Source: a virus
Length of the DNA: 56,448 nucleotides
Virus record (IMG/VR): IMGVR_UViG_3300046804_006442
Coordinates: 1 to 56,448 of that record
Strand: one strand, 5' to 3'
Shown piece by piece: positions 23,095 to 51,935 of the stretch. The notes under the pieces are model-generated. The model saw only the letters and a list, made by a program, of their open reading frames with translations, was not told the DNA's origin and ran no database searches. The position numbers and the translations under genes were made by a program. Position 1 is the stretch's first letter. The number at the start of each line of letters is the position of its first letter.

Positions 23095-23109
23095 AACTAA
23101 TTACAATAT

Positions 23110-25112: not shown

Positions 25113-25115
25113 CAT

Positions 25116-25193: not shown

Positions 25194-25230
25194 GTATTTG
25201 AATCGATAAATATTCCAATAAGGAATGATT

Positions 25231-25548: not shown

Positions 25549-25580
25549 ATCAGTAGCACCAACAGCGTAAATAGATTTAC

Positions 25581-25656
25581 GGGGGTATAGCTCAGCTGGG
25601 AGAGCGCTAGCTTTGCAAGCTAGATGTCGTCAGTTCGATCCTGACTACCTCCACCA
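25581..25656 (+). tRNA. tRNA-Ala (TGC)
   Basis: Acceptor GGGGGTA/TACCTCC, anticodon loop TTTGCAA, CCA encoded. Confidence 0.93.
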
Positions 25657-25660
25657 AATT

Positions 25661-26113: not shown

Positions 26114-26116
26114 CGG

Positions 26117-26145
26117 TTGACCTGTAGCGTCAACTCACATATACT
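26117..26145 (+). promoter_or_regulatory. Sigma70-type promoter of the large ncRNA
   Basis: TTGACC, 17 nt, TATACT (26140-26145). No gene follows for 1 kb, so this promoter makes an RNA. A boxA-like GTTCTTTTACAAA lies at about 26164-26176. Confidence 0.82.
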
Positions 26146-26151
26146 AGAGAC

Positions 26152-27090: not shown

Positions 27091-27094
27091 CCGT

Positions 27095-27102
27095 TATAAA
27101 TA
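27095..27102 (+). promoter_or_regulatory. T4 late promoter consensus TATAAATA
   Basis: An exact octamer upstream of the 27163 HNH gene. A hairpin (GTAGTT/AACTAC) lies between it and the gene. Confidence 0.6.
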
Positions 27103-27162
27103 ATAGTGTAGTTCGCGGGATTGGCGTCCCCAACTACTCTAATGCTTAGACGGAGCACCAGG

Positions 27163-27729
27163 ATGTGTATTTACTGTAATACAAAAAACTACCGTAAGAT
27201 CTACGAAAACCATATCGGTCCTATTACTTTAGATTGTGATGGGCGTAGTTTAGAAATCCATCACTGTGATGGAAATCATAATAATAACCATCCAGATAAT
27301 CTCAAACTGGTGACTATACAAGAACATTATGAAATTCATCGTTCTCAAGGAGATTGGGCGGCATGTAAACTAATTTCAAGCAGAATGCGTATTTCAATTC
27401 AAGAACATAAACAGGAACTAAGTCGTGCAACAACTGAGGCAAATTTGCAAAGAGTCAAGGACGGAATTCATCCGTTTATTGGCCCAATGTTGAATCAATC
27501 TAGGATTGAAAAAGGCACTCATAACTTTTTAGGTCCCGAAAATAATAGAAAAAGAGTGATAGAAGGCAAACATAATTTTCTCGGTAAATCAAATACACAA
27601 AAGCAATTAGCAGAAGGAAAACATCCTTCTCAAAAGACTTGGAAATGTCCTTATTGTAATAAAGAAGGTCGTGGTACAGGGATATATTCAAGATATCATG
27701 GTAATAAATGTAAGTTCAAAACAATCTAG
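27163..27729 (+). CDS. HNH homing endonuclease with NUMOD-like repeats
   Basis: 188 residues; ATG 27163 follows GGAG, while the longer reading from 27121 lacks a site. CIYCNTKNY opens a zinc-type finger; LEIHHCDGNHNNNHPDNL (about 42-59) is the HNH core. Three spaced GxHxFxGP-type modules (near 103-147) recall NUMOD3 DNA-binding repeats, and a C-terminal CPYCNKEGRGTG finger follows. The gene is AT-rich and lies between the large ncRNA and tRNA-Gln, with its TAG overlapping the tRNA by 2 nt. A mobile element in an RNA-gene target is the likely explanation. Confidence 0.85.
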   Translation: MCIYCNTKNYRKIYENHIGPITLDCDGRSLEIHHCDGNHNNNHPDNLKLVTIQEHYEIHRSQGDWAACKLISSRMRISIQEHKQELSRATTEANLQRVKDGIHPFIGPMLNQSRIEKGTHNFLGPENNRKRVIEGKHNFLGKSNTQKQLAEGKHPSQKTWKCPYCNKEGRGTGIYSRYHGNKCKFKTI

Positions 27730-27802
27730 GGGATTCGCCAAGTGGTAAGGCATCGGATTTTGATTCCGACATTCGGTGGTTCGATCCCATCATCCCCTGC
27801 CA
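27728..27802 (+). tRNA. tRNA-Gln (TTG)
   Basis: Acceptor AGGGGAT/ATCCCCT, anticodon loop TTTTGAT, discriminator G, CCA encoded. Its first two bases overlap the HNH stop codon. Confidence 0.92.
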
Positions 27803-27820
27803 AAATAACAAAGGAGCCAG

Positions 27821-28033
27821 ATGTACAAAGTCTACTGGACCGATAGTCAAGGTCAATCACATGGTCACGAGCATGACAGCATCACTGAGATGCTGGCGCA
27901 TAGCCGACGTCTGCGTGAACAACCGGGCATGAGGTTCATAACCACAGTGGGAGAAGATCCCAACTGTACAAGTCTGCAGGGCGCCACAGATGTGCCCGGC
28001 GATTACACATGGATGAAACGGAGAACTCGATGA
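27821..28033 (+). CDS. Small phage protein
   Basis: 70 residues with a good AAGGAG site. It has a His-rich start (YWTDSQGQSHGHEHDSI), a short helix and a basic tail. It resembles short accessory proteins of T4-like phages. No function is assigned. Confidence 0.6.
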   Translation: MYKVYWTDSQGQSHGHEHDSITEMLAHSRRLREQPGMRFITTVGEDPNCTSLQGATDVPGDYTWMKRRTR

Positions 28034-28117
28034 AACGAGGTAAACGCTAGTGTCATCCTAGATCCCATCGTATGGTCTAGGGTTGGCACGTTAAATCAAC
28101 TCTATACGATCAACGAT

Positions 28118-28205
28118 GGGACTGTAGTCGAGTGGCTGAAGACACCGGACTTTTAATCCGGCATCCGAAAGGACATCGTGGGTTCGAATCCCACCGGTCC
28201 CACCA
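28118..28205 (+). tRNA. tRNA with TTT anticodon (Lys) on a class II body
   Basis: Acceptor GGGACTG/CGGTCCC, anticodon stem CCGGA/TCCGG, loop CTTTTAA, CCA encoded. The extra arm (TCC-GAAA-GGA) and Ser/Leu-like D-arm are abnormal for Lys. Confidence 0.8.
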
Positions 28206-28211
28206 TCAAAC

Positions 28212-28286
28212 GGGGTGTAAACTTTGATGGTGAAGTCCTGCCTCTTAAGCAGCGAGAACCCAGTTCGAGTCTGGGCCACCCCACCA
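28212..28286 (+). tRNA. tRNA-Lys (CTT)
   Basis: Acceptor GGGGTG/CACCCC, anticodon loop CTCTTAA, CCA encoded. Confidence 0.88.
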
Positions 28287-28292
28287 ATTCCA

Positions 28293-28368
28293 GCCCTGTT
28301 AGCTCACCGGGTAGAGCGCCTGTTTCGTAAATAGGAGGTAGGCAGTTCGAGACTGTCACAGGGCACCA
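28293..28368 (+). tRNA. tRNA-Thr (CGT)
   Basis: Acceptor GCCCTGT/ACAGGGC, anticodon loop TTCGTAA, CCA encoded. Confidence 0.92.
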
Positions 28369-28374
28369 AATTCA

Positions 28375-28403
28375 TTGACATCCAGGTCCGGAGTCAGTAT
28401 AAT
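28375..28403 (+). promoter_or_regulatory. Sigma70-type promoter giving a leaderless nuclease mRNA
   Basis: A perfect TTGACA, 17 nt and TATAAT (28398-28403), then 6 nt to ATG 28410 with no ribosome-binding site. Confidence 0.88.
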
Positions 28404-28409
28404 TACTAG

Positions 28410-28910
28410 ATGACCCAACTAATACATACTCTTGACCCTGCATTACTTGCCGAAGGACTGCCAGACACTCGCTATGACGAGTCTCCTTTCCGCAATCTCA
28501 AAACCCTGGGACCTAGAACCAAAGGCACTAGATTTGAAAATATAACCATAGCTCTCATGCAACAGCTGGGCCATAGTTACAAAAAACGCATTGGTACCGA
28601 TAATGATGCGGTATTCGATGAGGTCTGTTACGAGATCAAGGGTAGCCTACTAGGGCGAGACCATAACAAATTTACTTTCCTCCAAATCAGACCTGATCAA
28701 AACTATGATGCTATACTTTTTTCTATGTTTTATCCGCATCGAGTTATTCTCATGACCATGGATAAATCAACTGTCATAAAAAATATTTCTTCCAAGATAT
28801 TTAAAAAACAGCATGGCGGGGCCAAGGCAAATTCTGGCACCTATAGCTATTACGGAAACGAGAATACCCTGGCGCAGATCGGTGCTCGGATTTTACATGA
28901 AATTGAGTAA
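28410..28910 (+). CDS. PD-(D/E)xK-type restriction-like endonuclease
   Basis: 166 residues, leaderless. TKGTRFENITIALMQQLGHS (45-64) is followed by DAVFDEVCYEIKGSLLG (66-82), with D and E-x-K in the PD-(D/E)xK arrangement, then FTFLQIRPDQNYDAILF (near 89), a block found in several type II restriction enzymes. The C-terminus is basic. Its end overlaps a DNA methyltransferase gene by 14 nt, which strongly suggests a restriction-modification pair. The target sequence is unknown. Confidence 0.75.
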   Translation: MTQLIHTLDPALLAEGLPDTRYDESPFRNLKTLGPRTKGTRFENITIALMQQLGHSYKKRIGTDNDAVFDEVCYEIKGSLLGRDHNKFTFLQIRPDQNYDAILFSMFYPHRVILMTMDKSTVIKNISSKIFKKQHGGAKANSGTYSYYGNENTLAQIGARILHEIE

Positions 28911-29826
28911 GGATATCACCACAGCTGAATTGATGGCCATGGACTATCGCTATCACTACAGCGATCTAGAATTGATCAACGATTGGCAACGTCTCTGCAC
29001 TACCACGCAATACAAAACCGGTAGCCAATTCCGTCCGGGTATCAAACTATGCCATCACTTCTTCCCCAACTTTTGGGAGATCCAGAACCGGCGCGGTGTG
29101 AGCTTTGCCACTGCTTGGCAGGATCCCAAGGTCATGGATCGTGTGCGACAGTGGGGGCTGGAAGGCATGAGCCAGCTGTGGTTGAGCTGGATACGCCGGG
29201 CCGTGTTCTTGAATGCGGGACTTTGCAACAGTAGTTTCTATAGGCCACATCTGGCACGTCAGATCGTGATGAGTACCGACATCAAAGAAGGTGTAGTGTT
29301 TGATCCCTGTGCCGGCTGGGGTGGACGCATGCTGGGCACAGTGAGCGCGGGCTGGCGCTATGTGGCCTGCGAACCCAATCCCACTACATTTGACAATCTG
29401 CAGCGCATGGTAGATTTTTTGGGCATCGGTTCCTGCGTAGAGTTACATTGCCAACCCGCGGAACAGTTTGATATCGAGAGTTTGGATCGGGTAGATGTGG
29501 TGCTGACTTCGCCGCCCTACTTCAATCTTGAGATCTACAGCCAGGATCCGGATCAATGCTATAACCAATGGAACGATTGGACCGCGTGGAGAGACCAATG
29601 GTTTGAACCATTGGTACGACGATGCCAGCAGAAATTGAGCAGCGGTGGTCTCAGCTGCTGGAATGTCATGAACGTAAACCGTTGTGATCTCGTGGGGGTG
29701 ATTGAAAACACCCACAGCGATCTCCAGCAATGGGAACATGTCCGGGATGTGGGATTCCGTACACCCTTGGCCAATCTAAGAACTTTGAAGAATACCGACG
29801 TCACTAGATGTTACCGACGACGGTAG
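28897..29826 (+). CDS. DNA methyltransferase (amino-methylating type)
   Basis: 309 residues from ATG 28897. The SAM-binding motif VVFDPCAGWGGRMLGT (about 132-147) and the catalytic TSPPYFNLEIYSQD block (near 208) are clear; TSPPY is more typical of N4-cytosine enzymes than DPPY. The N-terminal 120 residues are specific to this protein and may hold target recognition. It is overlapped by the nuclease upstream. It could protect phage DNA while the nuclease cuts host DNA, or protect the phage from host restriction. Confidence 0.85.
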   Translation: MKLSKDITTAELMAMDYRYHYSDLELINDWQRLCTTTQYKTGSQFRPGIKLCHHFFPNFWEIQNRRGVSFATAWQDPKVMDRVRQWGLEGMSQLWLSWIRRAVFLNAGLCNSSFYRPHLARQIVMSTDIKEGVVFDPCAGWGGRMLGTVSAGWRYVACEPNPTTFDNLQRMVDFLGIGSCVELHCQPAEQFDIESLDRVDVVLTSPPYFNLEIYSQDPDQCYNQWNDWTAWRDQWFEPLVRRCQQKLSSGGLSCWNVMNVNRCDLVGVIENTHSDLQQWEHVRDVGFRTPLANLRTLKNTDVTRCYRRR

Positions 29827-29833
29827 AGGAATA

Positions 29834-29909
29834 CGGTGTGTAGCTCAGTTGGCAGAGCGCGACGTTTGGGACGTTGAGGCCGGGAGTTCGAGACTCTCCA
29901 CACCGACCA
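29834..29909 (+). tRNA. tRNA-Pro (TGG)
   Basis: Acceptor CGGTGTG/CACACCG, anticodon loop TTTGGGA, CCA encoded. Confidence 0.92.
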
Positions 29910-29914
29910 ACATT

Positions 29915-29991
29915 GCCCCTGTACGCCAGTGGACTAGACTACCTCGCTTCGAACGAGGGAGACGGAGGTTCGAATCCTTCCAGGGGCGCCA
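29915..29991 (+). tRNA. tRNA-Arg (TCG)
   Basis: Acceptor GCCCCTG/CAGGGGC, anticodon loop CTTCGAA, discriminator G, CCA encoded. Confidence 0.93.
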
Positions 29992-30064
29992 GTTTTGCCA
30001 GATCGGTCGCGCCGGCAGCAGCGACCATCTATAATCACTCTAACATCAATACACAAGGAAAAAT

Positions 30065-30628
30065 ATGAACATCAGCCTACGCCGCGCAGCGGCCCTGCAA
30101 GCCAGCATACACGACGCCATCCGCGAGATCCGCTTGGTGCGTTCGATCCGACTCAACGAATTCCAAGCAGCCGAACCCCAGCTTCTCCAGGCCTGCGCAA
30201 ATCATCGCACAGGTCTCCAGACTCGTAGCCAGCTCATGGGGGTGTTGTATCAGATCCGCCAGGCCGTGGGGCAAGCCAACGCCGCAGCCGGTATTGGGGA
30301 TCGCCTGGCCCAGGTGGCGCTGCTGGACAAAGAGATCCAGTTCTACAGCGAACTGGCCGGATGCCAGGCCCGCGAAAGCGCCGAGGTTGTTGCCGGCCGG
30401 CTGGACAAGATCCGCAATAGTCCGGCCGAGAGCAGTTACTACCGCGAACCCGTGGTAGAAAGCTCGGTGTTCGATGCCCAGGACATCCAGGATTTCCGCA
30501 AGCTGGTCTCAGAACATCGACGCGTTCGCCAGACCTACCAGGACCAGATCCTGGAGCTCAACGTGCGCACCGAGATCACGCTCTCGGACGAAGCGGTACA
30601 GATCCTCAAGAACGCGAACATCTTGTAA
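30065..30628 (+). CDS. Coiled-coil-rich hypothetical protein
   Basis: 187 residues, almost entirely helical, with many Ala, Gln and Arg residues (LRRAAALQASIHDAIREIRL at the N-terminus). AAGGAAA lies 5 nt before the start. No enzymatic motif is seen. It could be a scaffolding or DNA-binding accessory protein. Confidence 0.6.
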   Translation: MNISLRRAAALQASIHDAIREIRLVRSIRLNEFQAAEPQLLQACANHRTGLQTRSQLMGVLYQIRQAVGQANAAAGIGDRLAQVALLDKEIQFYSELAGCQARESAEVVAGRLDKIRNSPAESSYYREPVVESSVFDAQDIQDFRKLVSEHRRVRQTYQDQILELNVRTEITLSDEAVQILKNANIL

Positions 30629-30635
30629 CGAGTTT

Positions 30636-30661
30636 GGACGCAGGGTTCCGGCCCTGCGTCC
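30636..30661 (+). other. Strong hairpin after a gene
   Basis: A 10-bp perfect stem GGACGCAGGG/CCCTGCGTCC with a 6-nt loop. It has no U-tract, so it is a weak terminator at best or an RNA-processing or stability element. The 250 nt up to the next tRNA hold another hairpin (CCAGTA/TACTGG) and a pyrimidine-rich stretch, but no credible gene. Confidence 0.55.
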
Positions 30662-30913
30662 CGGAGAGTGGGAGGAAATGAGGATAGACAGCCAGTACTA
30701 GTTACTGGGTTGGCTTCAAAACCAACAGTGAAAACCATTGGACATGGTACGCGCAGGCGTGCTCCGGGCCGAGATTATTCGATTTGTCAATTGCTGCCCG
30801 GTGATATGCAGGCCCCTGTAGATTGTGCCTTGTGGTTTGTCGACGGTGGACTAATGGTCTGCCCTGTGGATTGTCTAGTCTATTACTCGCTTTCTCGCTC
30901 TCCGTCTTTTTTT

Positions 30914-30989
30914 GTCCCCGTAGCTCAGTGAATAGAGCGGCTCCGTCCTAAGGAGCGGGTCAGGGGTTTGAATCCTCTCGGGGACGCCA
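30914..30989 (+). tRNA. tRNA-Arg (CCT)
   Basis: Acceptor GTCCCCG/CGGGGAC, anticodon loop GTCCTAA, discriminator G, CCA encoded. Confidence 0.93.
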
Positions 30990-30995
30990 GTATAT

Positions 30996-31072
30996 CCGAG
31001 TATAGCGCAGCCAGGTAGCGTGCCTGTTTCGGGAACAGGAGGTCGTGAGTTCGAATCTCACTACTCGGACCA
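30996..31072 (+). tRNA. tRNA-Pro (CGG)
   Basis: Acceptor CCGAGTA/TACTCGG, anticodon loop TTCGGGA, CCA encoded. Confidence 0.93.
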
Positions 31073-31077
31073 TGAGA

Positions 31078-31325
31078 ATTGACATCTGACCTATCGCTGC
31101 GATGCGGTTTGTCGTAGAGGAAGTTCAGGGCTGCCACCGAGAACGTATGGGAGACGCGAGTCGGTTGAACCAGCGTGATATGGGCAGCAAGCCAAACAGA
31201 ACCAGGGAATTCTCGGCCTATTGGTTCGGGTTGGTGCACCCGTGATCCGCTGTGAGGCGGGGAGGACAGTGTTTACTGTAGATGAATGATAGGATAAAAC
31301 AGAACCCTGACTACAGGATGTCAAT
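31078..31325 (+). ncRNA. rnpB: RNase P RNA (minimal, phage-encoded)
   Basis: A 248-nt RNA closed by a perfect 9-bp P1 helix: ATTGACATC (31078) with GATGTCAAT (31317). The 5' conserved block reads GAGGAAGTTCAGGGCT, matching the universal GAGGAAAGTCCGGGCT. The 3' block ACAGAACCCTGACTA (31299) matches ACAGAACCCGGCTTA, preceded by TAGATGAATGA as in bacterial rnpB. The P4 strands show compensating changes (CAGGG/CCCTG). It is about 120 nt shorter than typical bacterial RNase P RNA. It lies between tRNA-Pro and tRNA-Leu, where it could mature the phage tRNAs. Confidence 0.93.
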
Positions 31326-31337
31326 ATATACATGCAG

Positions 31338-31414
31338 GCCCCGGTGACGGAATTGGTATACGTGTCGGACTCAAAATCCGAATTGTGTGGGTTCGAGTCC
31401 CACCTGGGGCACCA
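31338..31414 (+). tRNA. tRNA-Leu (CAA), short variable arm
   Basis: Acceptor GCCCCGG/CTGGGGC, anticodon loop CTCAAAA, CCA encoded. The variable arm is about 5 nt, as in the other late Leu tRNAs. Confidence 0.9.
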
Positions 31415-31453
31415 ATAAAAATCAACCGCAGAGATCTGGAAGTTATATAGTTG

Positions 31454-32554
31454 ATGACGATGATTTCCTCGCCCGACAAATTTGGGTATTATACTGCGGG
31501 TGATCTAAAAACCTATAGCAAGATCGAAGCCATAGAATATTCGCTGCGCACCAATCAACCTGTGGCCTGGCGATTCAACGAAGAAACGTTCCAACAAGTG
31601 GATTGGACCCGCGAACCCGCGTGTTCGCTCTGGGACCTATACAAGCGCCGCTGTGCGCAGATCCGTGCGGCCTATGATTATGTGATCCTGATGTATAGTG
31701 GTGGATCCGACAGCCAGAATATGTTGGATGCTTGGATGGATTCAGGATTGCCCTTAGATGAGGTGGCCAGTCTCTGGAGCCTACAGGGCAGCGGAGATCG
31801 ACAGGCATTTTCCGAGGCCGAGGTAGCCAATGTGGTGCTGCCCAAGATGGAAAAATTACCGGTACGATTCCGACTCATCGATCAGACCACCCTGATATTT
31901 GATTACCTCAATCAGCTACGAGATGATTGGCAATATACGATCAATCGCCATCTCAGTCCCAACAACGGTGCCAGAGCATTGTTACGTACTCATATCAAAG
32001 AGTGGGCCGATATAATCGCGGCCGGGAAAAGGCTATGTATAGTCTGGGGATCAGAAAAACCCAGGTTTGATGATGACGTCGTGACTTTCATGGACATAGT
32101 CGACAACTGTGTCAGTCCATATGTGCAGAGAAAGTATCAGGACGGTTGGTATGATGAACTATTCTACTGGACTCCCGACCTGCCAGAGTTATTGGTAAAG
32201 CAGGCACATACGATACGACGTTTCTTATCAATCCCCCAAGAACTTCCGGGATTTTACAAACCAGGAAAAGACTACTACGGTCGTAATACCGGGTTGGACA
32301 AATATCTGACTGCCAAGGGTGTCAGGCATCTCATATATCCAACATGGAACGATGACACTTTCACAGTGGGCAAGAGTTCAAACAACGTATTCGCCGACCG
32401 TGACCGATGGTTCTGGCGCGGTAATACCGCGGAATCCCTGTTGTTTGGAGAGATCGTAAAGTCCACATTCAATATCATGCTGGGTGATAGCGACCTGGCA
32501 TTGATCGACGCATATCAAAAGAAACTCATGTTCAGCGGCGCATATCGCATATGA
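31454..32554 (+). CDS. PP-loop (N-type ATP pyrophosphatase) family protein
   Basis: 366 residues from ATG 31454; GGAAG lies upstream and a TTG at 31451 is possible. VILMYSGGSDSQNMLDAW (about 76-93) is the PP-loop SGGxDS. The rest, with IVWGSEKPRF (near 194), does not match QueC, TilS or asparagine synthetase closely. PP-loop enzymes adenylate a carboxylate, amide or nucleobase for amide, thiol or nitrile formation. A QueC-like role in the deazaguanine pathway is conceivable but unproven. Overlaps the next gene by 4 nt. Confidence 0.75.
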   Translation: MTMISSPDKFGYYTAGDLKTYSKIEAIEYSLRTNQPVAWRFNEETFQQVDWTREPACSLWDLYKRRCAQIRAAYDYVILMYSGGSDSQNMLDAWMDSGLPLDEVASLWSLQGSGDRQAFSEAEVANVVLPKMEKLPVRFRLIDQTTLIFDYLNQLRDDWQYTINRHLSPNNGARALLRTHIKEWADIIAAGKRLCIVWGSEKPRFDDDVVTFMDIVDNCVSPYVQRKYQDGWYDELFYWTPDLPELLVKQAHTIRRFLSIPQELPGFYKPGKDYYGRNTGLDKYLTAKGVRHLIYPTWNDDTFTVGKSSNNVFADRDRWFWRGNTAESLLFGEIVKSTFNIMLGDSDLALIDAYQKKLMFSGAYRI

Positions 32555-33402
32555 AAATCCTAGTTTTGTTTTTGTGTTTACTCACCGGTGTTTGCCATGC
32601 GGAAAAATCCGCGATCTACGTTTCAAATCCGCCCGGGGGTATCAGTGATCTTCTAGCTAGATTCATCGCCAAGAATCGACGCGATACCATGGTGGTCAAT
32701 ATACCCGGAGCTCTGACCCAACAGGCCCCAAAACAGGCGTTCCAGACTCACCAGCCGCTCATAGTCGAGACCTCAACACTGATCATAGATCCGATCATAT
32801 ACGGCCGTGATCGCACCTATGACATAATCACTAATTTTAAAGAGATAATACTACTGGGCACGGCACCTAACGTATTGTTGGTACCAGACAATAATCCAGC
32901 CATCGGCATACAGTCATTCCGTCGCTGGGCCGAAGAATCAAATGTGGACCTGACCTATGCTACCAGCGGATCAATGACTCATATCGCCGCGCTAGAATTG
33001 CTAGAACGATTAGGATTGTCAGGACGGAGGATACCTTATCGCGGTGGTATCAATGCTACCCAAGCAGTTATGCGCAACGAAGTGGTGTTCCATGTTGGCA
33101 ACCTAGTTGGCGCGAAACCAGCATTGGCCACGAAAAAGGTCCGGGGTATAATGTTACCAAAAGAAACGTTCAAGACCCGTGGCTATTATGGTATCGCGTT
33201 CCCACCGGGTATGGCTCCCGAAACTATCGCAGCATGGCGCCAGGTAATATCAGATCTATTTTCCAACAAGGAAACTCGTAGCGAGATCGAACAGTTTGGT
33301 TTTGAAGTGGATCTGGTACAGGGTATCGCGCTGGAACCTTGGATCCGGAAAGAAACCACCTACTACGAAGAAATAATAAAGCGGTACCGGGTCTCAGAGT
33401 AG
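32551..33402 (+). CDS. Bug/TctC-family periplasmic binding protein
   Basis: 283 residues. Residues 1-17 form a signal peptide (ILVLFLCLLTGVCHA with a cleavage site after AxA-like CHA). The mature part matches TctC/Bug receptors: SNPPGGISDLLARFIAKN, NVLLVPDNN, DLTYATSGSMTH and PYRGGINATQAVM. They bind carboxylates or similar ligands outside the inner membrane. No transporter genes accompany it, so it may redirect a host carrier or act as a secreted binder. The 3' end overlaps the oppositely oriented nitronate monooxygenase gene by 9 nt. A host-derived gene is likely. Confidence 0.85.
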   Translation: MKILVLFLCLLTGVCHAEKSAIYVSNPPGGISDLLARFIAKNRRDTMVVNIPGALTQQAPKQAFQTHQPLIVETSTLIIDPIIYGRDRTYDIITNFKEIILLGTAPNVLLVPDNNPAIGIQSFRRWAEESNVDLTYATSGSMTHIAALELLERLGLSGRRIPYRGGINATQAVMRNEVVFHVGNLVGAKPALATKKVRGIMLPKETFKTRGYYGIAFPPGMAPETIAAWRQVISDLFSNKETRSEIEQFGFEVDLVQGIALEPWIRKETTYYEEIIKRYRVSE

Positions 33403-34242
33403 CCGAATCAAATCGTCTACGATGTCTTGGATGGGTCTTATGGAGGTAATATGATCTATGGCAGTACCACAATACACATGCCCATCACAAAGATCCTTGA
33501 TACCACGCTGTAGCCCCAGGGTATGATTGTTTTCGTCGTCGCTATCGATGATTTTATGTACGATTCCTTGTTTTCCATGACGTCCGAATCTAGTGAGATC
33601 CGCAGAACTGGTCTGGAGCAATTGTTCTTTGGTGACAGCGCTCAATTGGCACTCTTGGCTCATGGCAAATAGTGTTCCTATGGCGACAGCGATCGCACCT
33701 TGATCTAGGTAATATTTTACCTGCTCAGCTGAATGTATCCCGCCCGTTGGTATCACATTTGGCAATAGCGTCTTGAAATAATCGTAGGTATTTTTTAATG
33801 GTTTGATATCACGATTACTCCCCCCAGCACCTTCGGCCCCTTTTATTACATAAGCATCAAACGGTAATTTTAGATTTTTGTGCTCTAAACCACCGCGTAA
33901 TATTACTTTGACGCCGCGTTGCTGTAGTCGATTGACAGCGACAGATATCTGATCTTCGTTATCGGGGGTTAGGTCGTAATATCTGAGAACTTCGACATAT
34001 CTGACGCCCATGTCCACATACCTGCCAATATCTGTCATCAATGCAGTTATAGGTAGCGTCAATATGACGTTGGTTTCATAATAATCTTGTAGATAATCTT
34101 CCAGCTCGGCGTCAGTAATCAATCCCAGCACTATACCAGGCGTTATGCCGGCCGCCGCGGCTGCTCGTATCAATCGCAAATCACTGACATGATTCATGGC
34201 CGCGCATATTATGGGATACTTGCTTGATAAGAATGAACTCAT
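33394..34242 (-). CDS. Nitronate monooxygenase-like flavoprotein
   Basis: 282 residues on the minus strand. The start YPIICAAMNHVSDLRLIRAA and later VIPTGGIHSAEQVKYYLDQG and IAVAIGTLFAMSQEC match the NMO/2-nitropropane dioxygenase and FabK-like fold, which binds FMN near the GG-G and GT blocks. Family members oxidise nitronates or reduce enoyl groups. A leader with TATAAATA and an AAGGA site precedes it, so it is a separately transcribed late gene. It converges on the Bug-type gene. Confidence 0.85.
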   Translation of the reverse strand: MSSFLSSKYPIICAAMNHVSDLRLIRAAAAAGITPGIVLGLITDAELEDYLQDYYETNVILTLPITALMTDIGRYVDMGVRYVEVLRYYDLTPDNEDQISVAVNRLQQRGVKVILRGGLEHKNLKLPFDAYVIKGAEGAGGSNRDIKPLKNTYDYFKTLLPNVIPTGGIHSAEQVKYYLDQGAIAVAIGTLFAMSQECQLSAVTKEQLLQTSSADLTRFGRHGKQGIVHKIIDSDDENNHTLGLQRGIKDLCDGHVYCGTAIDHITSIRPIQDIVDDLIRLL

Positions 34243-34261
34243 TTTAACATCCTTGGGATGA

Positions 34262-34269
34262 TATTTATA
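34262..34269 (-). promoter_or_regulatory. T4 late promoter consensus TATAAATA of the NMO gene
   Basis: An exact octamer on the minus strand, 19 nt before the start codon with a ribosome-binding site between. Confidence 0.65.
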
Positions 34270-34293
34270 GAGGCATTCTAAACATCGTTTTGA

Positions 34294-34322
34294 TTGACCG
34301 ACTCAACGTCTTACTATATAAT
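34294..34322 (+). promoter_or_regulatory. Sigma70-type promoter
   Basis: TTGACC, 17 nt, TATAAT (34317-34322), directly before tRNA-Val. Confidence 0.88.
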
Positions 34323-34328
34323 TACACT

Positions 34329-34404
34329 GGGTCCTTAGATTAGAGGCTAAATCATCACGTCGACATCGTGAAGACCACTGGTTCGATTCCAGTAGGACCT
34401 ACCA
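34329..34404 (+). tRNA. tRNA-Val (GAC), C33 variant
   Basis: Acceptor GGGTCCT/AGGACCT, anticodon stem TCACG/CGTGA, loop TCGACAT with C at position 33 instead of U, CCA encoded. Confidence 0.85.
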
Positions 34405-34405
34405 A

Positions 34406-34482
34406 GGGGACATAGCTCAGCTGGGACGAGCGCTTCGATGGCATCGAAGAGGTCCGGGGTTCGATCCCCCGTGTCTCCACCA
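34406..34482 (+). tRNA. tRNA-Ala (GGC)
   Basis: Acceptor GGGGACA/TGTCTCC, anticodon loop ATGGCAT, CCA encoded. Confidence 0.93.
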
Positions 34483-34501
34483 TTTTACCAAGGAGAAAGC
34501 A

Positions 34502-35173
34502 ATGAAACGCCAGATAGAAATACGTGCTGCCGAAGGCGGCGAAGACAGTCGGTTGTTTGTGCAGGACCTTGCCCAGGCCTATATCCGCCTGGCCCAGCGA
34601 GTGGGCTGAACAGCTCGCCCCGTGGACCAACGCCCAGGTGAATCACATATCCTGGTAGAAGGTCAGGATCTGCGGGGACTAGACAACGAACCCGGTGGGC
34701 ATCGCATACAGCGAGTACCACCCACCGAACGCCGGGGCCGTGTGCATACCAGCACAGTCACAGTGGCCGTGATAGACCCGGCCCGACCCCAGGTCACCAT
34801 ACGCGAACAAGATCTCGACATCGAATGGTATTCGGGTACCGGTGCCGGGGGTCAATATCGCAACAAACATCAGAATAGCTGCCGTATCCGGCACAGACCC
34901 ACCGGTATCCAGGCCACTGCCCAGTGCCGCAGCCGGGAGAACAGCCTAGCCGAAGCCAAAACTGCGTTATCTGCGCGGGTGCAGGCCGCTGTACAGGGCC
35001 AGCATGATCAGGACCTGGCCAGAGATCGGCGCCAGCAGGTGGGGTCAGGTCAGCGCGGGGACAAGATACGCACCTATCGTTTCCAGGATGATCGGGTGCA
35101 GGATCATGTTACCGGGCGGCGGGCGCGAGTCACGGATGTGATGCGTGGGCAGATCGATCTCTTATGGCCCTAA
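34502..35173 (+). CDS. RF1-like peptide chain release factor with in-frame UGA
   Basis: Read through the UGA at 34607-34609, it encodes 223 residues in one frame. The N-terminal part has IEIRAAEGGEDSRLFVQDLA (5-24), then the UGA falls where release factors have a conserved Trp. VQRVPPTE-like PxT (RIQRVPPTERRGRVH) marks the UAA/UAG-reading RF1 class, and GTGAGGQYRNKHQ holds the GGQ hydrolysis motif. The first RF domain is missing, so it is a short form. AAGGAG precedes ATG 34502. The UGA could permit regulated readthrough or be a mutation; other genes here use UGA as stop. Confidence 0.85.
34607..34609 (+). other. In-frame UGA codon at a conserved Trp position of the release factor
   Basis: Flanked in frame by GTG GGC and ACA GCT. 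Both flanking parts align to RF1, and the missing residue is Trp (UGG to UGA). No frameshift is needed to continue. Confidence 0.85.
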
Positions 35174-35189
35174 TCCATGTTGCAGTGCA

Positions 35190-35195
35190 TAAATA
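35190..35195 (+). promoter_or_regulatory. T4-type late promoter, leaderless
   Basis: CATAAATA followed by TCTGC and ATG 35201. The same arrangement with identical flanks (TAAATATCTGC-ATGGA) recurs at 51984. Confidence 0.65.
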
Positions 35196-35200
35196 TCTGC

Positions 35201-35377
35201 ATGGACCGAGAACTCATACTAGAATCGATCTCGCAGGGGCAGGCTCTGGATCTGGCACATATCCAGCGTTGCCTGGATCTAGTTGACCACGAACCCGATG
35301 ATCTCATACGCATCTATGCGCGCCTATGGTTAGAGCATCATAGTCTTGACTTCGCCCGAGCACTGGTATTAAAGTAA
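35201..35377 (+). CDS. Small hypothetical protein
   Basis: 58 residues from ATG 35201, chosen over 35177 because the late promoter core lies in between and ends 5 nt before it. It is helical and acidic. The function is unknown. Confidence 0.55.
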   Translation: MDRELILESISQGQALDLAHIQRCLDLVDHEPDDLIRIYARLWLEHHSLDFARALVLK

Positions 35378-35393
35378 CGGCTCGCGGGAGTGA

Positions 35394-35460
35394 CGGAATC
35401 GGCATACGTATCGGACTTAAAATCCGAGTTTTGAGGGTTCGAGTCCCTCCTCCCGCACCA
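35394..35460 (+). tRNA. tRNA-Leu (TAA), short variable arm
   Basis: Acceptor GCGGGAG/CTCCCGC, anticodon loop CTTAAAA, CCA encoded. A Leu-like D-arm with a truncated variable arm. Confidence 0.9.
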
Positions 35461-35463
35461 ATA

Positions 35464-36054
35464 TTATCCCGTGACTGGATCGGTAAAAACTATGGTATCA
35501 CCGCGCCGCATGATATTGTCGGTGAATTTATTGAAAAAATCCAAATCATAATGATCTAGATAGTCTGCCACCTGGGCCAACTGGGGCCAATGTTGTTTTA
35601 GATATGGTCGGTTGTCTCGATCTAGGACCTCTTGCCAAGCTGGATCCTCATCATGTAATTCTACGTCGGGTCCAAGATATTGACCGTATATAGACAATGA
35701 GTATATGTGTTCCAAGCGTTCCATACGTACTGCGTAAGCATGCTCACCGATGCGACGAACACGACCATATAAACGCGGCACGAACGGATTGTTCTGGTGT
35801 TGCAGCACCCACGACATATAGCGGACATATTCCTGATTATCGGCATCAAAGATTTTAATCACGTAGTTGAATTTGGGGTTGGAATAGACCTGTGCATAAA
35901 GACCAGTACCAGCCCGGGTCCAACCCAGTCGATCCATTTCAGCAGTCAATTTATCGCGCACCGCCCTGTAGGTACCGATCTCATAGGCGCCTTGTGCCTG
36001 GGCCGCTTGGAACGCAGGATGTTTTTTGAAAGGTTGTAGTTCGTAAAGACGCAT
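35464..36054 (-). CDS. Kinase-like fold protein
   Basis: 196 residues on the minus strand. VIKIFDADN (about 65) carries a Lys in the position of the kinase ATP-binding lysine. Later, FFNKFTDNIMRRGDTIVFTDP (near 174) resembles the catalytic-loop Asn and the DFG-type Asp of protein-kinase-like folds. It is shorter than a typical kinase, so it may be a small phage phosphotransferase or pseudokinase. It has a leaderless late-type promoter and runs opposite to the flanking tRNAs. Confidence 0.6.
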   Translation of the reverse strand: MRLYELQPFKKHPAFQAAQAQGAYEIGTYRAVRDKLTAEMDRLGWTRAGTGLYAQVYSNPKFNYVIKIFDADNQEYVRYMSWVLQHQNNPFVPRLYGRVRRIGEHAYAVRMERLEHIYSLSIYGQYLGPDVELHDEDPAWQEVLDRDNRPYLKQHWPQLAQVADYLDHYDLDFFNKFTDNIMRRGDTIVFTDPVTG

Positions 36055-36059
36055 ATCAA

Positions 36060-36065
36060 TATTTA
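36060..36065 (-). promoter_or_regulatory. T4-type late promoter of the kinase-like gene, leaderless
   Basis: TAAATA on the minus strand, 5 nt before the ATG at 36054. Confidence 0.55.
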
Positions 36066-36070
36066 GCCTA

Positions 36071-36147
36071 GCCCCGGTGACGGAACTGGCATACGTACTG
36101 GTTCGAGAGACCAGGTTCTGTGGGTTCGAGTCCCACCCGGGGCACCA
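36071..36147 (+). tRNA. tRNA-Leu (GAG), C33 variant
   Basis: Acceptor GCCCCGG/CCGGGGC, anticodon stem CTGGT/ACCAG, loop TCGAGAG with C33, short variable arm, CCA encoded. It is the last tRNA of the array. Confidence 0.86.
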
Positions 36148-41685: not shown

Positions 41686-42897
41686 ATGACTATCAAACAA
41701 ATAATCGGCAACGGCGTTACCGCCGACGGCAGATACGAACTGCGAGTGCCGGTAAAGATCTGGACCAATGACATCGAGCCCACGGCTCTTGAACAGGCTC
41801 GTAAGCTGGCTCAGCTGCCCTTTATCCACAAGAACGGCGTGGCGCTTATGCCCGACGTGCATGCTGGTATTGGCTCTACTGTGGGCTCAGTGATCGCGAC
41901 TGAACATGCTGTGATCCCGGCGGCTGTGGGTGTGGATATTGGCTGCGGTATGAACGCGATCCGCACCAGCCTGCGCGCCGAGGACTTGCCCGACAGCCTG
42001 CGCACTGTGCGTCTGCAGATTGAGCGCGACGTGCCCCTGGGCGCGGGTGGTGCTCACAAAGAAGACTTGGCGGTGTTTCCGCAGCCCTTGGGTACCCGGG
42101 CTCGCCAACTGTTCGCAAAGCATCCCAACTTGGAAACCCGGCAATGGCATCGCCAGCTGGGCACGTTAGGTTCGGGCAACCACTTTATCGAGCTGTGCCT
42201 GGACGAAGCGGGCGCGGTGTGGATCATGCTGCACTCGGGTAGCCGTGGTGTTGGTAACACGATCGGCCGTCACTTTATCGATCAAGCCAAGCGCCTGATG
42301 GAACGGTTTTTCATTACGCTGCCGGATCGCGACTTGGCTTATTTGCCGGATGGCACCCAGGAATTTGCTGACTACATCGAAGCGATTGGTTGGGCGCAGG
42401 ATTATGCTCGCGAAAACCGTGCTATCATGATGACTGCGGTGATCGCGTCGCTGCGCCGGCATATCCCGGTAGAGTTTGAGCTGACGTCTGAAGCGGTCAA
42501 TGCACATCATAACTACCTGGAGATCGAGAACCACTTTGGCACCAACATGTATATCACTCGCAAGGGTGCTATCCGTGCGCGTCGAGGTGATCTTGGTATT
42601 ATCCCGGGCAGCATGGGCGCGAAGAGCTACATCGTGCAGGGCCTGGGCGATCCGGAATCCTACTGCTCGTGTAGCCATGGTGCGGGTCGTAAGATGTCGC
42701 GCACTGAAGCGAACCGGCGGTTTACTGTAGAGGACTTGAAGGCGCAGACTGCGGGTGTGGAATGCAACAAGACGTCCGCGGTTATCGACGAGATTCCCAG
42801 TGCATACAAGGACATCGATGTGGTCATGGAGAACCAGCGGGACTTGGTTCGTGTGGTGCATACCCTGAAGCAGGTTATGTGCGTCAAAGGTGCGTAA
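41686..42897 (+). CDS. rtcB: RNA-splicing ligase RtcB
   Basis: 403 residues with the full RtcB signature. GVDIGCGMNAI contains the metal ligand C87, LGSGNHFIEL contains H166, MLHSGSRGVG contains H183, and HHNYLE contains H275. SCSHGAGRKMSR holds H331, which is guanylylated. RtcB joins 3'-phosphate or 2',3'-cyclic-phosphate RNA to 5'-OH ends. Phages with large tRNA arrays could use it to reseal tRNAs cut by host nucleases or to repair rRNA. No RtcA or archease lies nearby. The following gene starts on the overlapping TAATG. Confidence 0.95.
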   Translation: MTIKQIIGNGVTADGRYELRVPVKIWTNDIEPTALEQARKLAQLPFIHKNGVALMPDVHAGIGSTVGSVIATEHAVIPAAVGVDIGCGMNAIRTSLRAEDLPDSLRTVRLQIERDVPLGAGGAHKEDLAVFPQPLGTRARQLFAKHPNLETRQWHRQLGTLGSGNHFIELCLDEAGAVWIMLHSGSRGVGNTIGRHFIDQAKRLMERFFITLPDRDLAYLPDGTQEFADYIEAIGWAQDYARENRAIMMTAVIASLRRHIPVEFELTSEAVNAHHNYLEIENHFGTNMYITRKGAIRARRGDLGIIPGSMGAKSYIVQGLGDPESYCSCSHGAGRKMSRTEANRRFTVEDLKAQTAGVECNKTSAVIDEIPSAYKDIDVVMENQRDLVRVVHTLKQVMCVKGA

Positions 42898-45227: not shown

Positions 45228-45800
45228 ATGAAAACTACATTCTTGATCGGTGATACGCATTTTGGACACGCCAATATCTGCCGTTTTCCGGCCTCAGACG
45301 GTCGCGGAAAACTACGTCCCTGGGATGACGTGGCAGACATGGACGAGGCCATGGTCGAAAAATACAATGCCAAGGTCGGACCAAATGACAAATGTTATTT
45401 CCTAGGTGATGTGTGTATCAACCGAAGAGCCCTGCCTATACTGGGTCGTCTCAACGGCGACAAGGTCCTGATCAAGGGCAATCATGACATCTTCAATCTA
45501 GCCGACTATGCGCCCTACTTCCGGGATATCCGGGCCTATCATGTCATGAATGGCATGATCCTGAGCCATATCCCGGTGCATGAATCGGCACTGTATCGCT
45601 TTGGTGCCAACATACACGGTCACCTGCATGACAAGCGAGTCATGCTGGCCGACGGTAGCGGGATCGATCCACGCTATATTACCGTGAGCGTGGAGCAGAC
45701 CGACTATGCGCCCATCAGCTTGGATGAAGTGCAGGATCGTATCCGGGCCCAGGGTGGGGTAGTAGGTTTCCGTAATGGCAATGGACCACAGGTGGACTAG
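45228..45800 (+). CDS. Calcineurin-like metallophosphoesterase
   Basis: 190 residues. The metal-binding motifs are in order: IGDTHFGHANI (7-17), FLGDVCINRR, IKGNHDIF (near 84), SHIPVHE (near 112) and NIHGHLHDKR (near 127). The fold cleaves phosphodiesters or removes 2',3'-cyclic phosphate and other phosphates. With RtcB and a CX5R phosphatase nearby, an RNA end-healing role is conceivable, but this is inference. Confidence 0.88.
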   Translation: MKTTFLIGDTHFGHANICRFPASDGRGKLRPWDDVADMDEAMVEKYNAKVGPNDKCYFLGDVCINRRALPILGRLNGDKVLIKGNHDIFNLADYAPYFRDIRAYHVMNGMILSHIPVHESALYRFGANIHGHLHDKRVMLADGSGIDPRYITVSVEQTDYAPISLDEVQDRIRAQGGVVGFRNGNGPQVD

Positions 45801-46482: not shown

Positions 46483-46617
46483 ATGCCAGATGATGATGTA
46501 AGAGCCAGAGTCAGCGTACAAACACCTTGGTTCAAATTGTTTGTGGACCGGATAGACTGGAAAGAGGTCGTGGTAGTAGGCATGGTGTTGTTGACCATAG
46601 TTTATTTGGTCCGGTAA
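46483..46617 (+). CDS. Small single-span membrane protein
   Basis: 44 residues. Acidic N-terminus (PDDDVRARVS), then a membrane segment (VVVVGMVLLTIVYLV) at the C-terminus, so it is probably a C-tail anchored peptide. It has a GGGAG ribosome site and ends just upstream of the tmRNA acceptor part. Confidence 0.6.
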   Translation: MPDDDVRARVSVQTPWFKLFVDRIDWKEVVVVGMVLLTIVYLVR

Positions 46618-46629
46618 GAATTGCTGTAT

Positions 46630-46912
46630 GAAGCAGATCCAAAGACGGACAAGACAGGGGTTCGACTCCCCTCCAGTCCACCAGAAAGTATACTGCATAG
46701 GTTTTTGCGGATGGCGCCATCCAACACAATTCAGTAGTATACTTTCTAATGGGCTGGTCATGGTATCGATTGACGGACAAGTAGACGAGTGGACAGCAGG
46801 GTAGGCGAAGACCCTAAATCTAGCGAAACTATAGACGCTAACGACGATCTATTCGCACAGGCCGCGTAAAACCGGCTGCTGAGGCAGGAATGCCAAGAAA
46901 CAGAAAATCCAG
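46630..46912 (+). ncRNA. ssrA: Circularly permuted (two-piece) tmRNA
   Basis: The 3' acceptor part comes first: CGGACAAGACAGGGG, T-arm TTCGACT, then CCAGTCC-A-CCA ending at 46683. A 67-nt spacer (46684-46750), bracketed by AGAAAGTATACT/AGTATACTTTCT, would fold as a hairpin and be removed. The 5' part starts GGGCTGG at 46751, pairing with CCAGTCC in seven pairs, then a tmRNA-like TGGTATCGATTGACGG. The tag reading frame GCT AAC GAC GAT CTA TTC GCA CAG GCC GCG TAA (46837-46869) gives ANDDLFAQAA. This class rescues stalled ribosomes. No smpB is in this window. Confidence 0.95.
46837..46869 (+). other. tmRNA tag reading frame (ANDDLFAQAA)
   Basis: The resume codon GCT follows ATAGAC, as GCA follows ATAGTC in E. 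coli tmRNA. The tag ends in two alanines and a TAA, as expected for a proteolysis tag; AQAA replaces the common ALAA end. Confidence 0.92.
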
Positions 46913-46913
46913 A

Positions 46914-46940
46914 AATAGGCTCTTCGGAGCCTATTTTTTT
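46914..46940 (+). terminator. Intrinsic terminator of the tmRNA gene
   Basis: The stem AATAGGCTC/GAGCCTATT with a stable TTCG tetraloop is followed by seven T. Confidence 0.95.
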
Positions 46941-46967
46941 GACAACAGATCCCGTGGATAGTAAAAT
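46939..46967 (+). promoter_or_regulatory. Sigma70-type promoter of the peroxiredoxin gene
   Basis: TTGACA, 17 nt, TAAAAT (46962-46967). The -35 shares its first T residues with the tmRNA terminator tract. Confidence 0.7.
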
Positions 46968-46990
46968 TGTTCTTTGAGAAAGGAAATCTT

Positions 46991-47527
46991 ATGCCCTATT
47001 TTGCACCTGACAACGTGACCTTTGCCTTCAGGCAAGGAGATGAAGCCCCCGCGGGTGGTGGTTGCCCCATCGGTGGTGAGTTTGTTTACCGAACCAGCCG
47101 AGAACTGTTTGGCGGTAAACGTGTGATCGTGTTTAGCCTACCCGGCGCTTTCACACCCACCTGCAGCACCTACCAACTGCCCGGCTTTGAAGAACGCTAT
47201 GATGAGTTCCGGGCTCGCGGCATCGACGAGATCTATTGTTGCAGCGTCAACGATGCTTTTGTCATGAACGCCTGGGCCCAGCAGCTGGGTATCCAGAAGG
47301 TCAAGATGCTGCCCGATGGCAATGGTGACTTCACGCGCCTCATGGGCATGCTGGTCAGCAAAAGCCAGCTGGGTTTCGGTCAGCGCAGCCATCGTTATGC
47401 CATGATCCTTACCGACATGGTACGCGAGAAATTGTTCGTGGAACCCGGACGCGAAGACAATTTCGGCAGCGATCCCTATGGGGAGAGCAGCCCAGAAAAC
47501 GTCCTGAAGTATCTCCAGTCGCAGTAA
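46991..47527 (+). CDS. Peroxiredoxin (Prx5-like)
   Basis: 178 residues from ATG 46991, with AAAGGAA upstream; a start at 46967 would lie inside the promoter. LPGAFTPTCSTYQLPGF (near 52) holds the peroxidatic Cys in the PxxxTxxC motif. The sequence continues with a Prx5-type resolving region (IDEIYCCSVNDAFVMNAW) and later RYAMILTD. It would reduce H2O2 or organic peroxides in the infected cell. It sits between the tmRNA and a bidirectional terminator. Confidence 0.88.
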   Translation: MPYFAPDNVTFAFRQGDEAPAGGGCPIGGEFVYRTSRELFGGKRVIVFSLPGAFTPTCSTYQLPGFEERYDEFRARGIDEIYCCSVNDAFVMNAWAQQLGIQKVKMLPDGNGDFTRLMGMLVSKSQLGFGQRSHRYAMILTDMVREKLFVEPGREDNFGSDPYGESSPENVLKYLQSQ

Positions 47528-48825: not shown

Positions 48826-49911
48826 ATGTCTGACAATCGCACTGTTACTTCAATCGGCGCCCACAAGGCCATCCGCAAATGTTTCAACAAGAAACGCCCG
48901 CTGTTCCTCTGGGGTCCGCCCGGCATCGGCAAGTCCGACGTGGTCGCCGAGATCACGCAGGAGATGGGTGGTTTCATGATCGACCTGCGCCTGGGTCAGA
49001 TGGATCCCACTGATATCCGTGGTATCCCGTTCTACAACAAAGACACCGGCTTGATGGACTGGGCTCCGCCCGTGGACCTGCCGAACGCTGAGCTGGCTGC
49101 TCAGTATCCTATTATCGTCCTGTTCATGGACGAGATGAACTCGGCTGCCCCGGCCGTGCAGGCTGCGGCATATCAGCTGGTGCTGAATCGCCGGATCGGC
49201 AAGTATCGCCTGCCCGACAACGTGGTCATGATCGCTGCTGGTAACCGTGAGTCGGACAAGGGCGTCACGTTCCGTATGCCGACCCCGCTGGCCAATCGTT
49301 TCGTGCACATCGAAATGCGCCCGGATTTCGCTGCCTGGCAGGAATGGGCTGTGAAGAACCAGGTCCACAAGGACGTGGTGGGTTACCTGACCTTTGCCAA
49401 ACAGGACCTGTATGACTTTGATGCCAAGAGCTCGAGCCGTGCATTTGCCACGCCGCGCAGCTGGTGCTTCGTCAGCAATCTCCTGGAAGACGAGGACATG
49501 GACGATGTCACTGCTACCGACTTGATCGCTGGCACTGTGGGCGAAGGCCTGGCTGTGAAGTTCATGCAGCATCGCAAGATCGCGGGTCGCTTGCCCAAGC
49601 CCGAAGACATCCTGGCTGGCAAGGAGAAGGATCTCAAGGTCAAGGAAGTGTCGGCGATGTATTCGCTGGTGATTTCCATGTGCTACGAGCTCAAGAACGC
49701 TGTGGATACCAAGGTCGCTGACAAAGAGTTCCACGCCATGTCCGATAACTTCTTCGGCTACATGATGAAGAACTTCGAGACCGAGCTGGTGATCATGGGT
49801 GCGCGGATCGCGCTTACCACGTATAACCTGCCGTTCCAGCCCACCAAGTTGAAGAACTTCAACGAGTTCCACGACAAATACGGCAAGTATATCCTCCAGG
49901 CCAACTCGTAA
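48826..49911 (+). CDS. MoxR-family AAA+ ATPase
   Basis: 361 residues. Walker A FLWGPPGIGKSDV (near 27-39), Walker B PIIVLFMDEMNSA (about 96-108), sensor-like MIAAGNRES (near 136) and an Arg-finger region (TPLANRFVHIEM) define the MoxR group. MoxR proteins act with VWA partners as chaperones for complex assembly or metal insertion. The VWA gene lies downstream at 50607, with two small genes between. It may act in phage particle assembly or host remodelling. Confidence 0.9.
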   Translation: MSDNRTVTSIGAHKAIRKCFNKKRPLFLWGPPGIGKSDVVAEITQEMGGFMIDLRLGQMDPTDIRGIPFYNKDTGLMDWAPPVDLPNAELAAQYPIIVLFMDEMNSAAPAVQAAAYQLVLNRRIGKYRLPDNVVMIAAGNRESDKGVTFRMPTPLANRFVHIEMRPDFAAWQEWAVKNQVHKDVVGYLTFAKQDLYDFDAKSSSRAFATPRSWCFVSNLLEDEDMDDVTATDLIAGTVGEGLAVKFMQHRKIAGRLPKPEDILAGKEKDLKVKEVSAMYSLVISMCYELKNAVDTKVADKEFHAMSDNFFGYMMKNFETELVIMGARIALTTYNLPFQPTKLKNFNEFHDKYGKYILQANS

Positions 49912-50582: not shown

Positions 50583-50606
50583 ACTGAAACAATGCAAGGA
50601 GCCCAT

Positions 50607-51935
50607 ATGTCATACAATTTGCAAAATCGTTCCAACGTGCTGCATGCTGCGGTCAAAGGCACCCAGAACAAAGATGACGCCAAACGTTTCGCTAACCTGA
50701 TCGGTCCCATGGATCCCAAACTGGACCGTGAAGTGCGCGAGCTACTGGTCACTGCCCGCGTGGGTATGCTACTCAAGTCCAGCTTCTTTGGTAACTTGGC
50801 CACGCGGCTCAAGTTGGTCAATGCCGACGAGTGGTGCGCGACCGCTGCCACAGATGGTCGTCACTTCTACTACAATACCCGCTTCATCAAAATGCTGCGA
50901 CCCCGTGAGATCGAATTCCTGTTCGGACATGAGGTCCTGCACTGCGTTTATGACCACTTTGGTCGCCGCGGTGATCGCGATCCCCAGATCTGGAATTGCG
51001 CCAATGACTTCTGCGTCAACGGTGACCTCAAGAAACACAAGGTCGGTGAGTTCATCACTTCGGTGCCGTGCCTGTATGACGACAAGTATGATGGCATGAG
51101 CTCGGAGCAGGTCTACGATGATCTCATGAAGAATGTGCAACAGATCACCCTGGACCAGCTGCTGGATAAACTGCTGGACGATCACCTGGACGGCGATGAC
51201 GACAGCGACGGCGGTGGCGACCAAGACGGCGAGGGCAAAGAAGGCAAAGGCAAGGGCCGTCCCAAACTCAGCGAAGAAGAAAAACAACAGATCCGCGATG
51301 AGATCAAGGAGGCTGTGCTCAGCGCGGCCCAGACCTGTAGCGCCGGCGACTTGCCCCTGGGTGTGCGACGCATGATCCAGGACCTAACCGAACCCAAGAT
51401 GAACTGGCGCGAGCTGATCCGCCAGCAGATCCAGAGCACTGTCAAGAGCGACTTTACTTGGATGCGGGCGAGCCGTAAAGGCTGGCACATGGACGCGGTC
51501 ATGCCGGGCATGAAGACCACTGACGCTATCGATATCGTGATCTTCCTGGACATGTCAGGTTCCATCGGTGAGGAACAGGCTCGGGACTTTATCTCCGAGA
51601 TCAAAGGCATCATGGAAACGTTTGAAAACTACCGTATCCATATCGCATGCTTTGATACTGAGGTCTACAACCCGCAACAGTATGACAGCGAAAACCTTGA
51701 GGACATCGCCGAATACCAGCTGGACGGTGGTGGCGGCACCATGTTTGAGTGCATGTTCAAGTATCTCAAGGACCAGAGCATCGAGCCCAAAAAGATGATC
51801 GTGTTCACTGACGGCTACCCCTGCGGCAGCTGGGGTGATCCCAACTACTGCGACACTGTTTGGATCATCCATGGTGATCCCAATCCCAATCCGCCCTTTG
51901 GTGTGTTCGCGCTCTACGACGATCACCGTAACTAG
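50607..51935 (+). CDS. VWA-domain, metallopeptidase-like partner of MoxR
   Basis: 442 residues from ATG 50607, with AAGGAG about 7 nt upstream. The N-terminal part carries EFLFGHEVLHCVYDHFGRRG with an HExxH zinc motif (108-112). A Lys/Asp/Gly-rich acidic linker follows (about 195-225). The C-terminal VWA domain has IVIFLDMSGSIGEEQ, the MIDAS DxSxS motif, and later FDTEVYNPQQ and VFTDGYP. The layout matches the DUF2201/VWA-metallopeptidase proteins that pair with MoxR ATPases. Confidence 0.88.
   Translation: MSYNLQNRSNVLHAAVKGTQNKDDAKRFANLIGPMDPKLDREVRELLVTARVGMLLKSSFFGNLATRLKLVNADEWCATAATDGRHFYYNTRFIKMLRPREIEFLFGHEVLHCVYDHFGRRGDRDPQIWNCANDFCVNGDLKKHKVGEFITSVPCLYDDKYDGMSSEQVYDDLMKNVQQITLDQLLDKLLDDHLDGDDDSDGGGDQDGEGKEGKGKGRPKLSEEEKQQIRDEIKEAVLSAAQTCSAGDLPLGVRRMIQDLTEPKMNWRELIRQQIQSTVKSDFTWMRASRKGWHMDAVMPGMKTTDAIDIVIFLDMSGSIGEEQARDFISEIKGIMETFENYRIHIACFDTEVYNPQQYDSENLEDIAEYQLDGGGGTMFECMFKYLKDQSIEPKKMIVFTDGYPCGSWGDPNYCDTVWIIHGDPNPNPPFGVFALYDDHRN

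Follow-up and report, generated by a model that had tools for sequence, protein, structure and literature searches.

A complete two-piece (circularly permuted) tmRNA gene was identified with Rfam covariance models and ARAGORN at positions 46622-46937 on the plus strand of a linear viral fragment from an IMG/VR virus record. The whole fragment of 56,448 bases is referred to here as the window. The gene is very likely a complete and probably functional phage ssrA of the betaproteobacterial permuted form, which would act as an ordinary ssrA together with host factors during infection.

Structure of the permuted tmRNA gene

The beta_tmRNA model (RF01850) matched window positions 46576-46937 over its full length (model positions 1-331) with 122.5 bits against a curated cut-off of 84 (E = 7e-37), and tmRNA_permuted (RF04321) matched 46622-46869 with 108.8 bits against a cut-off of 47 (model positions 1-213). 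ARAGORN independently reported one permuted tmRNA with the tag ANDDLFAQAA. A chance origin of the match is excluded. An earlier note, made from the sequence alone, had proposed a phage-encoded permuted two-piece tmRNA with this very tag and had suggested a search with the permuted covariance models; these strong matches, the ARAGORN call, the phage-type neighbours and the synteny described below bear the proposal out. The span given there, 46630-46912, does fall on the gene but is too narrow, since the gene starts with a helix at about 46622 and runs to the end of its terminator at 46937.

All parts of the gene are on the plus strand. The acceptor half, the tRNA-like 3′ part of the molecule, occupies 46622-46683, as delimited by the start of the RF04321 match at 46622, the sequence and the pairing, and ends in CCACCA. 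It contains a T-arm at 46656-46672 (AGGGG-TTCGACT-CCCCT, loop TTCGACT), followed by the acceptor 3′ strand CCAGUCC (46673-46679) and ACCA (46680-46683). A 67 nt spacer (46684-46750; RNA fold −22.8 kcal/mol), predicted to be removed on maturation, leads to the coding half, which comprises the mRNA-like part and the 3′ region (46751-46912, the 3′ end being predicted). The acceptor 5′ strand GGGCUGG (46751-46757) opens the coding half and pairs in seven of seven positions with the acceptor 3′ strand, and the D-loop UGGUAUCGA follows at 46761-46769. Alanine identity is carried by the CCA end and by G3-U70, the alanine identity pair; the third acceptor pair was G-U in 201 of the 202 permuted tmRNAs collected. 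In the predicted fold the two ends of the spacer, 46684-46696 and 46734-46746, join in a 13-bp hairpin that stacks on the acceptor stem; pairing of the spacer ends was seen in 176 of the same 202. The acceptor half upstream of the coding half, the seven-base-pair joining of the two ends and the inverted repeat around the spacer had all been noticed earlier and were all recovered here.

The tag frame, also read correctly at the outset in its resume-codon context, runs from the resume codon GCT to a TAA stop at 46837-46869 (GCT AAC GAC GAT CTA TTC GCA CAG GCC GCG TAA), in agreement with ARAGORN, the translation and the alignment with relatives. A rho-independent terminator, GAAATAGGCTC TTCG GAGCCTATTTTTTT, is found at 46912-46937 (fold −13.7 kcal/mol) and is followed by a T run. 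Just past it, at 46939-46967 (+), a sigma-70-like promoter (TTGACA-17-TAAAAT, 11 of 12 positions by consensus match) probably serves the next gene, encoding a peroxiredoxin. No convincing promoter was found upstream of the tmRNA gene. With its own terminator ending at about 46937 and another promoter directly beyond, the gene looks like a self-contained 3′-terminated unit.

In gene order, two-piece form, G3-U70, D-loop and T-loop motifs, resume context, ten-residue AND... tag and 3′ terminator the window copy resembles the betaproteobacterial permuted tmRNAs (RF01850, RF04321). It differs from these in its location on a phage, its longer hairpin spacer and the QAA end of its tag, and its 122.5 bits are below the scores of bacterial copies such as that of Thauera (274 bits).

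The degradation tag and its evolution

The tag conforms to the general ssrA pattern, AND...F.-AA, and has the final Ala-Ala of the ClpXP-type degron (Ala-Ala after Leu) with Gln in place of Leu. Among the 144 distinct viral tmRNAs collected, the QAA end was found in the window only (0 of 143 others); LAA was present in 96, and the remainder were mainly MAA, VAA and IAA. The polar Q occupies a position that is L, M or I in 73 of 76 ten-residue phage tags and A in two. The nearest tag is ANDDLFAMAA, from locus L090. A degenerate scan of viral contigs for AND..[F/Y]AQAA revealed no other tmRNA, and QAA was rejected as a recurring viral tag, the sole scan match being the end of a protein-coding gene on viral contig L364. 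There, a 198-aa protein (9336-9932) ends in ...LQAANDDTFAQAA and resembles an ssrA tag, probably by chance.

Across 36 independent phage tmRNA pairs, substitutions were distributed unevenly over the tag. Codons 2, 3, 9 and 10 had 59 synonymous and 3 amino-acid changes, whereas codons 4 and 5 had 7 synonymous and 39 amino-acid changes. By this count phage tags conserve N, D and the final AA at the amino-acid level, which argues that the tags are translated and used. Between near relatives (loci L003-L303) the middle codons 4-8 of phage tags differed by 0.36 changes per site against 0.07 in the RNA core, about five times as many, and in bacteria by 0.067 against 0.058. Faster tag evolution in phages is a lead only, because the bacterial values come from 7 pairs and because selecting pairs for the closest core introduces a bias into the contrast. 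How far tags may diverge is illustrated by L027 (ANDSRFLMVA) and L084 (ANDESYALAA), whose RNA cores are 97% identical. If phage tags did outpace host tags yet keep AND and AA, this would be a direct sign of degron selection during infection. We regard it as unlikely that phages with two-piece tmRNA maintain rescue and quickly adjust the tag in its middle and at its end, with QAA here uncoupling rescue from fast ClpXP destruction.

In a related reading, selection has favoured QAA itself for slower or redirected degradation; ribosomes would be freed while tagged phage proteins last longer. The rarity of QAA and the rate of change of the middle codons point in this direction, but the case is one codon in one record, and the reading seems improbable to us. 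A single base separates the Q codon CAG from CTG, which encodes Leu, so that mutation or error may account for it, and Q8 could reflect either damage to the tag or a mistake in assembly or sequencing. The aromatic residue and the AA are kept, and bacterial tags also depart from LAA (LKQA in Variovorax, LAYGT in Herbaspirillum). Moreover, ClpXP recognition is described as depending most on the C-terminal Ala-Ala, and a change of the antepenultimate Leu as raising the KM for ClpXP only modestly (PMC7652416, citing Flynn 2001). In view of this modest effect and of the retained AND...F.-AA, the earlier suggestion that the tag may direct nascent chains to proteases of choice has no support. The likeliest effect of QAA would be somewhat slower degradation and not a new protease.

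Phage neighbourhood and relatives

The gene is flanked upstream by a phosphoesterase (phrog_547, 45228-45800, +) and downstream by a phage-type peroxiredoxin (phrog_2281, 46967-47527, +, E = 2.5e-65), whose closest cultured relatives are cyanophage proteins with 66% identity. Further upstream is an RtcB RNA ligase (41686-42897, +; PF01139, E = 7e-126; phrog_1075), and ARAGORN located 42 tRNA genes on the same strand at 17191-36147, covering nearly all amino acids and with small ORFs between them; the tmRNA had rightly been described as lying beside a large translation kit. Past the peroxiredoxin an AAA ATPase (phrog_1297) has its best relatives in Pseudomonas jumbo phages (53%), and a VWA protein and ThyX are also encoded downstream of the tmRNA. 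A MoxR-like AAA ATPase (48826-49911) adjoins a DUF2201/VWA metallopeptidase-like protein (50592-51935). SmpB was not detected in the 56,448-base fragment, so the tmRNA would rely on that of the host.

Two other loci in the window were noted. A GOLLD RNA (26621-27080, 191 bits) encloses a tRNA-like sequence at 26683-26757 whose anticodon, UUA, would decode the UAA stop. If it worked, an ochre suppressor of this kind would come at a cost, because TAA is the commonest stop (11 of 23 confident ORFs) and also ends the tmRNA tag; tRNAs within the GOLLD linker are already known (PMC12286853). A gene for a TctC/Bug-like receptor protein (32551-33402, +) overlaps at its 3′ end that of a nitronate-monooxygenase-like protein (33394-34242, −). 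This pair is possible metabolic cargo and a weak hint to the host, as plasmid matches to TctC were only about 25% identical and mostly from Cupriavidus and other betaproteobacteria.

A diverged relative, L366 (also L124; contig IMGVR_UViG_3300048694_001276), encodes an RtcB 86% and a peroxiredoxin 83% identical to those of the window. It shares the phosphoesterase and, downstream, a block of 5 kb with 78% identical DNA, including the MoxR-like and DUF2201/VWA genes. In the same interval between phosphoesterase and peroxiredoxin L366 has a permuted tmRNA with the tag ANDNVYALAA. Acceptor pairs 4, 5 and 6 are C-G, U-A and G-C in the window and G-C, G-C and U-A in L366, i.e. three double changes that leave all seven pairs intact and G3-U70 the same. 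The two tmRNAs use different sequences to pair their spacer ends, and TTCG forms the terminator loop of each. That L366 retains the locus at this position, with three of the seven acceptor pairs doubly changed and all seven still pairing, is strong evidence that the tmRNA is maintained as a phage gene and is not contamination. The closest fragment by RtcB (95%), L365, shows no tmRNA within its 31 kb, and the gene may thus be dispensable in the lineage or located elsewhere.

This gap in L365 and the Q8 substitution would both fit a neutral passenger, acquired with the tRNA array and now drifting. Such drift is very unlikely, given that acceptor and T-arm pairs, CCA, G3-U70, tag frame and terminator are all intact and that the changes in L366 are compensatory.

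We give still less credence to a host fragment or attachment-site remnant, in which a betaproteobacterial ssrA would have arrived by imprecise excision, at a prophage junction or on a contaminating host contig. It is true that ssrA is often used as a site of integration (PMC11915505, PMC4131195) and that the best-fitting covariance model is betaproteobacterial. However, the gene is whole with phage-type genes on either side, no tyrosine integrase was found in the 56,448-base fragment, and the position is kept in L366 with compensatory changes; by synteny the host-fragment reading appears largely refuted, and a prophage or attachment-site origin was rejected for the lack of an integrase and the kept synteny. 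In a tree of 159 tmRNA sequences, poorly resolved and used only for the viral nearest rows, those nearest to the window copy were viral and not from the sampled bacteria. The earlier note had named an identical locus in a host genome as the sign of contamination; no copy was found in plasmids, nor among 101 genomes sampled from a Variovorax family in a search that had no positive control. Host assignment from order- or family-level genome samples gave few or no useful matches and was rejected as uninformative, because few candidates were scored per genome or the positive control was missing.

Least credible is a decoy role, in which competition for host SmpB would block trans-translation in the host, a mechanism put forward for the tag-less tmRNA-like RNA of mycobacteriophage DS6A. 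Although a tRNA-like domain alone inhibits tmRNA (PMC4131195, PMC11915505), a decoy requires neither the intact tag frame, resume codon and stop found here nor the conservation of phage tags as protein.

Occurrence in viruses and proposed role

Viral contigs were scanned with a DNA pattern for permuted tmRNA in a long-spacer and a shorter-spacer form, which matched at least 120 stretches and 60 stretches, respectively. At least 137 distinct matches were obtained, with full seven-of-seven acceptor pairing in at least 116; among the matches listed this is 85%, compared to 19% when partners were shuffled. A survey of 18,146 genomes had previously found the two-piece form in 53 of 133 distinct phage tmRNA structures and described phage Melnitz in detail (PMC9004378), whereas earlier lists covered one-piece phage ssrA (PMC4131195). 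Phage two-piece tmRNA was thus already published in 2022 (PMC9004378), and the window copy adds a member. In view of this precedent, the locus is less unusual than the earlier note suggests.

Among cultured phages, Synechococcus phage BUCT-ZZ01 (ON615601) is the nearest match; both tmRNA halves align at about 78%, its permuted tmRNA scores 94.5 bits with beta_tmRNA and has the tag ANDETFSMALAA. Its tag and neighbouring genes differ from those of the window, and in the record its tmRNA overlaps a 'hypothetical protein'. Similar DNA also matches annotated tmRNAs of Stenotrophomonas phages and Pelagibacter phage Mosig. Like the window, methylophage Melnitz and Mosig combine a complete permuted tmRNA with a large phage genome and no reported integrase (PMC9004378). 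Their ssrA is of alphaproteobacterial descent and has a glutamine riboswitch (PMC9004378), whereas the window copy is betaproteobacterial by score, and no riboswitch was detected alongside it. The ssrA of mycobacteriophage Bxz1 and Bacillus phage G (PMC4131195) is also phage-encoded, but of one piece and not permuted. Permuted-type tmRNAs were further seen on two Stenotrophomonas (gammaproteobacterial) contigs, L214 and L226, with the tags ANQVDYHQARIAA and ANADYYDQDEEVILRVA; they are possibly mobile-element copies, since cultured Stenotrophomonas phages carry tmRNA too.

The action of the window gene as an ordinary phage ssrA may be depicted as follows: A single transcript would stop at its own terminator, and host RNases would cut out the spacer, whose hairpin extends the acceptor stem. 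The two pieces would stay joined through the 7-bp acceptor stem and long-range helices. The CCA end would be charged by the host alanyl-tRNA synthetase via G3-U70, and host SmpB and EF-Tu would deliver the tmRNA to ribosomes stalled on broken mRNA. Translation would resume at GCU, add (A)ANDDLFAQAA and terminate at UAA, and the tagged chain would go mainly to host ClpXP. Together with the 42 tRNAs and RtcB, the benefit may be that ribosomes keep cycling during the destruction of host RNA and DNA, and that they are also freed when defence nucleases cut mRNA and tRNA.

The translation kit of this large phage, rich in tRNA genes, includes a structurally intact two-piece tmRNA of betaproteobacterial type. 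Together with the more than 100 viral copies gathered, it allows tests of whether trans-translation serves phages to keep ribosomes available, and of whether phage tags have adapted to viral needs.
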